DNA from: Desulfovibrio sp.
Lineage (GTDB): Bacteria > Bacillota > Dethiobacteria > DTU022
Length of the DNA stretch: 32,603 nucleotides
Assembly (NCBI GenBank): GCA_020060545.1
Contig: JAGUZX010000129.1
Span: forward strand, 1-32,603
Direction: 5' to 3'
Below the pieces are notes generated by a model, which did no database searches, had not been told where the DNA came from, and saw only the letters and a list, made by a program, of their open reading frames with translations. Each line of letters starts with the position of its first letter. The first letter of the stretch is position 1. This document shows, one piece after another, positions 20,128 through 27,132 of this stretch. The position numbers and the translations under genes are program-made.

Positions 20128-21180
20128 TTAACATTGATCTGTCCAGTGAAGCTGTTCGTCCAGCAAACCTTTCTTCCTTAAGCTTCGCAGCACTTTTAGC
20201 CTGATAAAATTGGAATTACGGAAATCCGGATCGCTGAACCGCATCGCCTCCAGACCCAGCTTTAGTTCCTCGATGGTCGGGAGCAGATCATAACGCGGCT
20301 GGTGTTCCGGGGCCAGGGCTTTAAACAGCCCGAAATCGACCCGGTACGAACGACGGTCCGGCGGCGCCCCTTTATTGATGGAGAGTTCAACCCCGGGGAT
20401 TACCCGGGCCACCGCTTCGGCCAGCTCTTTAACCCGGTAATTCCAGTCGTCGCGCCCGACGTTGACGACCAGGCAATTGCCCCCGGCAGACGGGTCCCGG
20501 CCGACGGCCCAGTCGACAGCCCGGGCCATGTCTTTCACATTAATCAGCGGCCGCAGGGGGGTACCGTCGCTCAAAATCGTAATTTTTCCGGTCGACACCG
20601 CGCCGGCGACAAAATCGTTTAACACCAGGTCCAACCGCAGGCGCTCGGCCATGCCGCAGGCAGTGGAAAATCTCAGGCAGGTAACCATAAAATGCCTGCC
20701 GGCCAGTTGAGCCAGCTCTTTTTCGGCTAAAACTTTCGACCGGGCGTAAGCCGTTTGCGGATCCAGGGGAGAGCCTTCATGCCTGGCGCTGTCTTCGGCA
20801 AAACCGTAAACGCTGCAGCTTGAGGCAAAGATAAACGCCCCGGCTCCTGCCGCCCTGGCTTTTTGGGCCAGATCGATTGTGGCCCGGTAGTTGACATCGT
20901 AGGTAACCGCTTCAAATTCTTTACCCATGGGATCGTTGGAAATCGCCGCCAGGCTGACCACGACATCCACTCCCGACAGCACCGCCGGGGATAAGTTCCT
21001 TACATCCTGGAAATACTGCAGGTCCACCCGGTTTTCGGGAAGGATGTCGCCGTTCGAGAGCTGATTGGCAAAATAACCGGTGTCGAGACCGGTTAACATG
21101 GCCCCGGGATATGTAGAGCGCAACTGCTTTACTACACCCGGCCCGACATAGCCCATATTTCCGGTAATTAATATTTTCAA
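20128..21180 (-). CDS. NAD-dependent epimerase/dehydratase (extended SDR)
   Basis: 350 residues: GNMGYVGPG nucleotide motif, GVDVVVSLAAISNDP, FIFASSCSVYGFAED, TAYARSK (Tyr-x3-Lys), LRFSTACG, LRPLINVKDMARAVDWAV and a long C-terminal domain. SDRs of this kind often neighbour C-methyltransferases in O-antigen loci and act as ketoreductases or epimerases on NDP-deoxysugars. It lacks recognisable 4,6-dehydratase features that would make it a RmlB/RfbG substitute, though this cannot be excluded without a structure-based search. It overlaps the upstream GT2 stop by 4 nt and is 15 nt before the C-methyltransferase gene. Confidence 0.85.
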   Translation of the reverse strand: MKILITGNMGYVGPGVVKQLRSTYPGAMLTGLDTGYFANQLSNGDILPENRVDLQYFQDVRNLSPAVLSGVDVVVSLAAISNDPMGKEFEAVTYDVNYRATIDLAQKARAAGAGAFIFASSCSVYGFAEDSARHEGSPLDPQTAYARSKVLAEKELAQLAGRHFMVTCLRFSTACGMAERLRLDLVLNDFVAGAVSTGKITILSDGTPLRPLINVKDMARAVDWAVGRDPSAGGNCLVVNVGRDDWNYRVKELAEAVARVIPGVELSINKGAPPDRRSYRVDFGLFKALAPEHQPRYDLLPTIEELKLGLEAMRFSDPDFRNSNFIRLKVLRSLRKKGLLDEQLHWTDQC

Positions 21181-24249: not shown

Positions 24250-24296
24250 GGGGCTGTGAAAGCCCCCTCATTTTAGCCTTCCCCCAGGGGGGAAGG
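24250..24296. repeat. REP-like palindromes spanning the murC stop codon
   Basis: Two close palindromes: GGGGCT/AGCCCC with a 5-nt loop (24250-24266), and CCTTCCCCC with GGGGGGAAGG (24277-24296). The second is inside the last codons of murC and encodes the unusual ending PSPLGEG. The G/C-run composition resembles dispersed repeats seen in many genomes; copy number cannot be judged here. Confidence 0.4.
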
Positions 24297-25688
24297 TATC
24301 TGCCGGTGGATCCTTTCGACAAGGGTGTAGGCCAGGCGGGTAATGTCCCCGGCGCCCATGACGATAATCATGTCGCCGGGCCGGGCGAAATCGAGGGCCA
24401 TCTGAGCCAGATCGTCCATATCTTCACTCGCATAGACCGGTTCCCCCTTGACCTCGCTAATCCGGCGGGCGAGAGAGGCGGCGCTCACTCCGGCGATGGG
24501 CGGATCGCCGGCGGCGTAGATCCGGTGCAGTAAAACCAAATCCGCATCGTTGAAAGAGCGGGCAAATTCCTCGAAAAGCAAGGCGGTCCTGGTATAGCGG
24601 TGCGGCTGAAAGATGCAGCAAATCCGCCGCCCGTTGGCCCTGGCCGCTTCCAGGGTAACGCGGATCTCTGTCGGATGGTGGGCGTAATCGTCGACCACCG
24701 TAATCCCGTTGACCACTCCGATGATCTCAAAACGCCTGTCGGCGCCGCGAAAATTAGCCAGGGCCCCGGCGCACTCGTCCAGGTTAAGCCCGAGCTGCGC
24801 GGCCACGGTCAAAGCCCCGACGGCGTTGCTGATGTTGTGCTTCCCGGGCACCTGCAGGGTTATGGGCCCGGTTGCCGGTTTACCGCGGTGATGCAAGGTA
24901 AAGGTTGAACCGCCGGGGCCCAGTTCAATCGCCCCGGACGAATAATCAGCGCCGGTTTTACCGGTTCCCGTCAGGGCATAGGTAACCGCTTTTCGTTTCA
25001 GCCGCCCGGCCAGTTCCCGCAGGTAGGGATCGTCGCCGCATAAAACCGTACAACCGTCTTCGGATACATGGTTAATAAAAGCGGCGTAGGCTTCCCGCAG
25101 CAGGCCGAAATCGTTATCGTAATGCTCCAGGTGATCCGCTTCCACGTTGGTGACGATGGCGATACGGGGGCGGTAGCGTAAAAAAGAATGGTCGCTCTCG
25201 CAGGCTTCCGCGACCAGGTAGGGGCTTTTCCCGAGACGGGCGTTCCCTTTAAAAGAGCGGACGACGCCCCCGATCACGGCGGTCGGATCCAGCCCTCCCC
25301 GCTCCAGCAGGAGCGCAATCATCGCCGTGGTGGTAGTCTTGCCGTGTGTCCCGGCTACGGCGATGCCGTAGTGATCGTTCATCAAGGCGGCCAGCAGTTC
25401 GGAACGGTGCCACAGCGGGATCTTGCGCCGCCCGGCTTCCTGCAGCTCCGGGTTGCCGGCGGCAATGGCGGTAGAGTAGACTACCAGTTCGGCCGAGTTG
25501 ACATTCTCCCGCCGGTGCTCGAAGCTGATACCCGCCCCCTGCTCGATCAGCTGCCTGGTCAGGGATGATTCTTTGATATCAGAGCCGGTGACACGGTAAC
25601 CCAGTTTCAACAGCACTTGGGCCAGGGCGCTCATACCGTAACCGCCGATGCCGATAAAGTGAACATGGTGCACTGCCGGCAGGGTCAA
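24273..25688 (-). CDS. murC: UDP-N-acetylmuramate--L-alanine ligase
   Basis: A 471-residue Mur ligase: N-terminal FIGIGGYGMSALAQ, the ATP loop AGTHGKTTTT (112-121), EACESDHSFL, TNVEADHLEHY, the C-terminal domain start RRFEIIG, VVDDYAHHPTEI and FQPHRYTRT, MGAGDI near the end. It adds L-alanine to UDP-MurNAc in the cytoplasm, ATP-dependent, at the start of peptidoglycan stem-peptide synthesis. All domains are complete. TTG at 25688 follows GGAGG at 8 nt. The last seven residues come from a palindromic repeat. It stands alone with its own likely promoter rather than in a dcw cluster. Confidence 0.97.
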   Translation of the reverse strand: MTLPAVHHVHFIGIGGYGMSALAQVLLKLGYRVTGSDIKESSLTRQLIEQGAGISFEHRRENVNSAELVVYSTAIAAGNPELQEAGRRKIPLWHRSELLAALMNDHYGIAVAGTHGKTTTTAMIALLLERGGLDPTAVIGGVVRSFKGNARLGKSPYLVAEACESDHSFLRYRPRIAIVTNVEADHLEHYDNDFGLLREAYAAFINHVSEDGCTVLCGDDPYLRELAGRLKRKAVTYALTGTGKTGADYSSGAIELGPGGSTFTLHHRGKPATGPITLQVPGKHNISNAVGALTVAAQLGLNLDECAGALANFRGADRRFEIIGVVNGITVVDDYAHHPTEIRVTLEAARANGRRICCIFQPHRYTRTALLFEEFARSFNDADLVLLHRIYAAGDPPIAGVSAASLARRISEVKGEPVYASEDMDDLAQMALDFARPGDMIIVMGAGDITRLAYTLVERIHRQIPSPLGEG

Positions 25689-25816: not shown

Positions 25817-25944
25817 TTCAGGCCTCGAACGGTCGAACGGTTTTCGAAAGCGATTTTAGGTTAACATGTTATGTCCACCAAAAAACAGTCATAAATTTTA
25901 GAAACCCGCATATAGATATAGTTTGCAGCAAATTCCAGGATCAG

Positions 25945-26025
25945 TAATCCACACTTTGCACAAGGTTATCCACAGCCAGAGCGGCTTGTTTCTGCAGATC
26001 ATCTCAGTTATGCACAGTATGCACA
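25945..26025 (+). promoter_or_regulatory. Cluster of DnaA boxes in the tsaD-murC intergenic region
   Basis: Five same-orientation sites resemble the consensus TTATNCACA: TAATCCACA (25945-25953, one mismatch), CTTTGCACA (25954-25962, two mismatches), TTATCCACA (25966-25974, perfect), TTATGCACA (26008-26016, perfect), GTATGCACA (26017-26025, one mismatch). Offsets between the first, third and fourth boxes are 21 and 42 bp, i.e. whole helical turns. Flanks on both sides are AT-rich. The rest of the 394-bp gap carries the murC promoter and no gene. A DnaA-binding regulatory or titration site is likely; an origin is unlikely without dnaA/dnaN. Confidence 0.65.
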
Positions 26026-26082
26026 TTAAGTAGACATAAAATATTGCCAGAATAAGTATCTAGCAATTTTGTCAATTAGGCC

Positions 26083-27132
26083 TCAGCAGCCGGCCCCGAG
26101 GTTGGGAACAGCGTTCAGATCAAGGGCTGCAAATTCGCCGCGCCGGTAGCGCGGGTACGCGGCGGCGGCGACCATGGGCGCATTATCGGTGCAGAGGGCG
26201 GGCGGCGGGAAATAGAGGGGCAGCCCCGGATGCGCCTCCGCCAGGCGCAGGCGCATCCGGCTGCGCAGGAAGCTGTTGGCGGCCACCCCGCCGGCCAGGA
26301 GCACGCATGCGGCCCGGTGTTCCCGGGCCGCGTCGACGGTTTTTTCCACCAGCACTTCCACCACGGCGGCCTGGAACGAAGCCGCCAGGTCCGGCAGGTA
26401 AATCTCTTCCCCGGTTTGCCGCCGGTGATGCAGCAGATTGATTACCGCCGATTTGAGGCCGCTAAAGCTGAAATCAAACCGCCCTGCTTCGCCCAGAAAG
26501 GCGCGGGGAAAATCGATGCCGGCGGGGTTGCCTTCGCCGGCCAGGCGGTCGATGACCGGCCCGCCGGGATAGCCCAGACCCATGACCCGGGCAACCTTGT
26601 CAAACGCTTCTCCCGCGGCGTCGTCGCGGGTCTGGCCCAGCAGGGTTATCTCCTCCGGTCCGGGCATCAGGAGCAGCGCGGTATGCCCTCCCGAAGCGAT
26701 CAGGGCGACCAGGGGGTACTTGATCCCGGCGCCGGTTAAAAAGTTGGCATAGAGATGCGCCTCCAGGTGGTTGACGGCGATCAGGGGCAGGCGGGCCGCA
26801 TAGGCAAGCGCCTTCGCCGAAGCGACGCCTACCAGGAGCGCCCCCACCAGGCCGGGGCCGTTTGATACGGCGACGGCGTGCAGGTCCCGCAGCCCGGCGC
26901 CGGCCGCGGCCAGGGCCTGCTCGACAATCTCGTTGATCAACTCCAGGTGGTGGCGGGAGGCGATCTCGGGGACCACCCCGCCGAAGCGGGCGTGCAGCCC
27001 GACCTGGGAAGAGACGAAGCTGCTCAAGATCCGGCTGCCGTTTTCGACTACCGCCGCCGCCGTCTCGTCGCAGGATGTTTCGATACCGAGGATTAACACC
27101 GCTTCAGGAAGCCGGCTCATTTTCCTCTCCAT
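26083..27132 (-). CDS. tsaD: tRNA N6-adenosine threonylcarbamoyltransferase
   Basis: A 349-residue Kae1/TsaD/Gcp protein: LGIETSCDETAAAVVENG, VPEIASRHHLE, AVSNGPGLVGALLVG, and the metal ligands NHLEAHLYA (His 122 and 126), ASGGHTALL, GLGYPGGPVID and CVLLAGGVAANSFLR. It transfers threonylcarbamoyl from TC-AMP to A37 of ANN-decoding tRNAs, with TsaB and TsaE. The frame starts at 27132; an in-frame ATG at 27120 has an equally good GGAGAGG site. It overlaps rimI in either case and is the last gene of the tsaE-tsaB-rimI-tsaD operon. Confidence 0.97.
   Translation of the reverse strand: MERKMSRLPEAVLILGIETSCDETAAAVVENGSRILSSFVSSQVGLHARFGGVVPEIASRHHLELINEIVEQALAAAGAGLRDLHAVAVSNGPGLVGALLVGVASAKALAYAARLPLIAVNHLEAHLYANFLTGAGIKYPLVALIASGGHTALLLMPGPEEITLLGQTRDDAAGEAFDKVARVMGLGYPGGPVIDRLAGEGNPAGIDFPRAFLGEAGRFDFSFSGLKSAVINLLHHRRQTGEEIYLPDLAASFQAAVVEVLVEKTVDAAREHRAACVLLAGGVAANSFLRSRMRLRLAEAHPGLPLYFPPPALCTDNAPMVAAAAYPRYRRGEFAALDLNAVPNLGAGC

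Follow-up and report, generated by a model that had tools for sequence, protein, structure and literature searches.

The window, i.e. the whole stretch of 32,603 nucleotides that was analysed, carries tsaD (26083..27132, minus strand; TIGR03723, PF00814) and, as the next gene downstream, murC (24273..25688, minus strand; TIGR01082). These family matches confirm the two flanking genes named in an earlier note on this DNA. The 394 bp between the genes have a GC content of 39 % compared with 57 % in the window, and it was fair to call this gap AT-rich. No Rfam family matched the gap.

Five DnaA boxes are arranged head to tail in the tsaD-murC gap with box starts at 0-9-21-63-72. All of them are on the plus strand, after the 3' end of tsaD and antiparallel to the gene. 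Box 1 (TAATCCACA, 25945..25953, offset 0) has one mismatch to TTATNCACA, and box 2 (CTTTGCACA, 25954..25962, offset 9), which abuts box 1, has two. Box 3 (TTATCCACA, 25966..25974, offset 21) is a perfect match. A 33-bp spacer (25975..26007) follows, giving a step of 42 bp (four turns) to box 4 (TTATGCACA, 26008..26016, offset 63; perfect match), after which comes box 5 (GTATGCACA, 26017..26025, offset 72; one mismatch). The earlier note had listed four sites (25945, 25966, 26008 and 26017; two perfect and two with one mismatch). Their positions and their offsets of 21 and 42 bp were confirmed, all four being on the plus strand, and the proposed clustering on one helical face is supported, but the fifth site, box 2 at 25954, had been overlooked. 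A putative decayed sixth box with a TAA tail (AAGTAGACATAA, 26028..26039, plus strand) contains the core ACATAA at 26034-26039, and this half-box at +89 is conserved. About 35 bp before box 1 there is an AT-rich motif with GCATATA (GCATATAGATATAG, 25908..25921, plus strand), which could possibly be part of a murC regulatory region. GCATATA recurs at this place in some members of the family and order (six loci).

It is the clustering and not the number of boxes that is unusual in the window. One-mismatch boxes were not in excess over the whole window (9 found, 11.2 expected), as would be expected if the array were a chance cluster in an AT-rich gap. However, when the 394-bp gap was shuffled 5000 times with dinucleotides preserved, four same-strand boxes in 81 bp never appeared, and three boxes were reached in 4 shuffles. 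The genome itself (2.52 Mb in 135 contigs, 95 % complete) contains 36 perfect TTATNCACA sites, compared with 16 for the reversed pattern. Two perfect boxes were found at most 100 bp apart at two places only, each pair being exactly 42 bp apart. When the genome was searched with the 30-bp triple (0-9-21, up to 3 mismatches), the tsaD array and an array on contig C16 were the only matches, and the reversed control found none in this genome. The genome-wide scan of box density thus gave one other equally dense place, the sister array on C16, and did not speak against the cluster described earlier.

The sister array (C16:20712-20805, L031:5213-5306; perfect boxes at 20733 and 20775) reads TAACTCACA-CTATCCACA-3-TTATGCACA-33-TTATCCACA, which is the layout 0-9-21-63 as at tsaD. 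In addition, GTAAACATAA, with the ACATAA half-box, is found at nearly the same distance as in the tsaD array. The sister array precedes a ferredoxin gene and a murE-type gene, and it lies about 2.5 kb downstream of an asparagine-synthase gene. In one relative a triple is also located downstream of an asparagine-synthase gene.

For comparison among genomes, tsaD loci were picked by TsaD protein similarity alone, with flanks unselected for boxes. Among 110 such loci, the density of perfect boxes was 2.59 per kb within the 400 bp that follow tsaD, approximately 70-fold the 0.036 per kb elsewhere. The array is present in most loci of the window's family and order that have an intact flank, so that the comparison of tsaD flanks in close relatives upheld the cluster as well. 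In these arrays the box sequences and the spacing are held, and the letters of the 33-bp spacer vary. Most of the loci retain the exact variant TAATCCACA as box 1, most relatives have at offset 9 a box that matches better than box 2 of the window, and boxes 4 and 5 are decayed in some relatives. Within the class the order tsaD-array-murC is kept (six loci), and the locus of one same-class genome is letter-identical over 1600 bp to that of a Dethiobacter MAG, which by kinship puts the window's organism in the class of Dethiobacter. In two genomes that share a genus (G039 and G041) the array is turned round with respect to tsaD, and orientation to the gene is therefore not strictly required.

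At least three antisense boxes after tsaD were found in 25 of 80 distant loci from other species, all of them Bacillota, as the earlier note had supposed in regarding this position as conserved over a large distance. These arrays come from Bacillus, Anoxybacillus, Oceanobacillus, Pseudalkalibacillus, Sporosarcina, Planococcus and Brevibacillus (Bacillaceae being among the families), and also from Kroppenstedtia, Thermincola, Thermosyntropha, Syntrophomonas, Desulfovirgula, Thermovorax and Dethiobacter. Pseudalkalibacillus has 0-9-21-63-72 exactly and Bacillus canaveralius has 9-21-63-72. The antisense clusters in Bacillaceae, Brevibacillus, Thermincola, Dethiobacter and others bridge the lineages between the window and B. 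subtilis and show homologous continuity at this site. Among the 80 distant loci no box cluster after tsaD was found in other phyla, nor in the Selenomonadaceae, Lachnospiraceae and several rumen clostridia of the set. Boxes, spacing and place after tsaD have all been conserved within the phylum, and a chance origin, of negligible probability, was therefore excluded.

The spacing was then compared across Bacillota. Offsets of 9, 12 and 42 bp were present in 20, 20 and 11 of the 25 distant arrays, respectively. When the same number of boxes was placed at random over the same span, the averages were 4.9, 4.5 and 3.0 loci and the observed values were never reached in 5000 trials, a test which treats the loci as independent although they are not entirely so. 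The 0-9-21 triple was found in 94 of 398 Bacillota genomes (one match for the reversed control), and a control with one extra base per spacer (0-10-23) in 3 of 299. The order-swapped triple 0-12-21 was found in 62 of 149 genomes, with none for its reversed control. It was rejected as a negative control since it is a second natural layout, and 21 of the 40 sites fetched are near tsaD. In both layouts the outer boxes are 21 bp, or two helical turns, apart. One or the other was present in 91 of 149 genomes (a hand count of two tables); many Bacillota genomes are without both triples, and the element is thus dispensable in part of the phylum.

Around 99 distinct 0-9-21 triples, in all of which box 3 is present by construction of the search pattern, further boxes showed peaks at offsets 63-65 and 72-74, and ACATAA showed a peak at offsets 88-90 (24 of 99). 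In six loci this place reads TTATTCACATAA, and some families have GGTTATTCACATAA there. Because of the latter, ACATAA is read as a sixth box of which the window's group would have held only the ACA end plus TAA. We also considered GTTNACATAA as a -35 promoter element. It was rejected as no consistent -10 element follows and relatives have TTATTCACATAA at this place.

Steps of 9, 12, 21 and 42 bp are near-fixed between classes whose spacers have diverged, which points to selection on the geometry itself. A geometry held in this way speaks for an ordered complex of DnaA more than for a loose sink. In an unstructured DnaA sink, the number of boxes would matter and the spacing would be inherited history. 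The switching of layouts between 9-12 and 12-9 and the decay of boxes 4 and 5 noted above would fit such a sink, and reviews describe the B. subtilis clusters as sequestering DnaA. However, inherited history sits badly with steps that stay near-fixed despite diverged spacers and with a slightly wider spacing being confined to the 3 of 299 genomes of the control, and we hold a purely numerical sink to be improbable.

The 0-12-21 triples have a second recurrent home in other Bacillota (four loci, with three more). Where checked, these triples are located after comF or before a gene for a glutamine-type ABC transporter or a ribosome hibernation factor, and a TTCGACA site, which is Spo0A-box-like, follows about 55-65 bp on. 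Through them the state of replication may be coupled to genes of sporulation or starvation. An assignment of this group to the spoIIG operon was rejected, as NCBIfam identified comF upstream and the glutamine-type ABC transporter or the ribosome hibernation factor downstream.

The neighbours of the 99 triples bear on murC. According to the earlier note the array may couple murC transcription to replication, with bound DnaA repressing or activating murC and so tying cell-wall synthesis to replication. The array does lie upstream of murC, the gene order is kept in the class, and in two relatives (G002 and G038) an array is found with murC, tsaD having a different location. Moreover, the sister array precedes ferredoxin and murE-type genes, and DnaA is known to act as a transcription factor (PMC4447404). 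Nevertheless, 63 of the 99 triples are within 900 bp of a 3' end of tsaD and almost all of these run antiparallel to it, whereas 27 are near murC and 31 are near neither gene, with varied neighbours where checked. In two Bacilli a convergent ABC-F-type gene is next to the array, the array is inverted in the two genomes of one genus, and no sigma-70-like promoter was found in the tsaD-murC gap. Since most arrays have no murC nearby and these further points agree, control of murC is weakened as an explanation and we regard it as unlikely.

The older name of tsaD is gcp, and the array of the window therefore occupies the place that corresponds to a DnaA-box cluster of B. subtilis, a kind of site that is already known there. 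The statement in the earlier note on a B. subtilis cluster beside gcp proved correct: Smith and Grossman reported in 2015 that DnaA binds strongly to their region 4, which lies downstream of gcp and ydiF (PMC4447404). The gcp region had an apparent Kd of 0.15 uM for ATP-DnaA and 0.33 uM for ADP-DnaA, and its recovery was 16-fold higher with ATP-DnaA at 55 nM (PMC4447404). Removal of six clusters outside oriC led to early initiation, which was partly relieved when one cluster was added back (PMC5295017, PMC13220808). The two arrays are alike in being directly after the 3' end of tsaD (gcp), in having several or many DnaA boxes and in being outside oriC. They differ in that the next gene in the window is the co-directional murC and in B. 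subtilis the convergent ydiF, and in that the window has five clear boxes and one decayed box whereas 10 are predicted in B. subtilis. The comparison with B. subtilis 168 is one of position and box clustering; the spacing was compared in its relatives Bacillus canaveralius and Pseudalkalibacillus, which have it.

Other authors consider the B. subtilis clusters analogous to datA. In Escherichia coli, datA is likewise a non-coding cluster of DnaA boxes; it lies near oriC, and through its copy number it holds back initiation (PMC5742627, PMC5010248). However, datA requires IHF and promotes ATP hydrolysis, and B. subtilis is without IHF (PMC13220808). The window's array was compared with datA by descriptions of function, no hydrolysis effect being known for the array. 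In the genome of the window's organism one HU-type protein (PF00216) was found. A second Bac_DnaA match was examined as Hda and rejected, as it is a helicase-loader-like ATPase.

The dnaA gene of this genome is on contig C63 and not on the window's contig, with the oriC region at C63:13405-15030. This oriC is poor in consensus boxes, with a single perfect box upstream of dnaA. Between dnaA and dnaN there is a pair spaced by 9 bp (ATATACACA/GTTTCCACA), followed by CTACTACTG, and a DnaA-trio-like run is present. The tandem pair 9 bp apart beside CTACTACTG resembles the tsaD array and is what could suggest that the array is a second or relic replication origin. On the other hand, the tsaD array has more boxes and the 42-bp gap, and it is without an adjacent dnaA or dnaN. 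No DnaA-trio-like run was found beside it, so that it lacks the features expected of an oriC (a trio or unwinding element with dnaA-dnaN nearby). In B. subtilis the clusters outside oriC have been argued to inhibit replication and not to start it (PMC11019786). An origin is thus disfavoured, chiefly by the missing trio-like run, and very improbable.

YabA, a DnaA inhibitor in B. subtilis, was also searched for (PF06156). No match was found in the 95 %-complete genome, and the B. subtilis control was matched. As YabA was not found, cluster-based control may weigh more in the window's organism, which is speculation.

We consider it reasonably probable that the array is the orthologue of the B. 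subtilis gcp DnaA-box cluster, located outside oriC and restraining initiation. In eight near-complete Bacillota genomes the distance between dnaA and the tsaD array is 0.15-0.54 of a chromosome arm, with a median of 0.25, and B. subtilis gcp, at about 0.3, is origin-proximal as well. By analogy, the array would be in the origin-proximal part of the chromosome also in the window's organism, whose genome is in draft contigs. Binding of DnaA to the tandem boxes, five or six in number, would be cooperative and would yield an ordered complex. Its two parts would be the triplet (0, 9, 21) and, four turns further along the same helical face, another group of boxes (63, 72, ~83). Strict spacing is not what a plain sink would predict; it points to a DnaA oligomer of defined form, in which the DNA might be bent over the 42-bp gap. 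Replication would reach the array shortly after initiation, and its two copies would then withdraw DnaA, probably ATP-DnaA preferentially, from oriC, so that early re-initiation would be prevented. The titration of DnaA proposed in the earlier note is plausible.

A wider reading, which we regard as possible but doubtful, is that of a Bacillota-wide, datA-like element defined by its geometry, i.e. the 21-bp triplet, the 42-bp gap and the second group ending in ACATAA. Here an ordered DnaA complex would inactivate or sequester ATP-DnaA, and the element would have been anchored behind tsaD early in the history of the phylum and would have re-arisen elsewhere in individual genomes. According to a 2026 review, B. 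subtilis is without datA and DARS loci, and the balance between DnaA-ATP and DnaA-ADP is treated there as open (PMC13220808).

With regard to the literature, a phylum-wide conserved architecture of this kind was not found described in open sources, and priority is uncertain because Okumura et al. 2012 was outside the search. The DnaA-box clusters outside oriC of B. subtilis were reportedly studied in that work.

The near-fixed spacing, kept next to a single gene in Bacilli and in several clostridial classes, suggests that one cluster at least is an old, structured control site and not a casual sink. The row of boxes after tsaD is thus probably an old control element against too-early copying of the chromosome.
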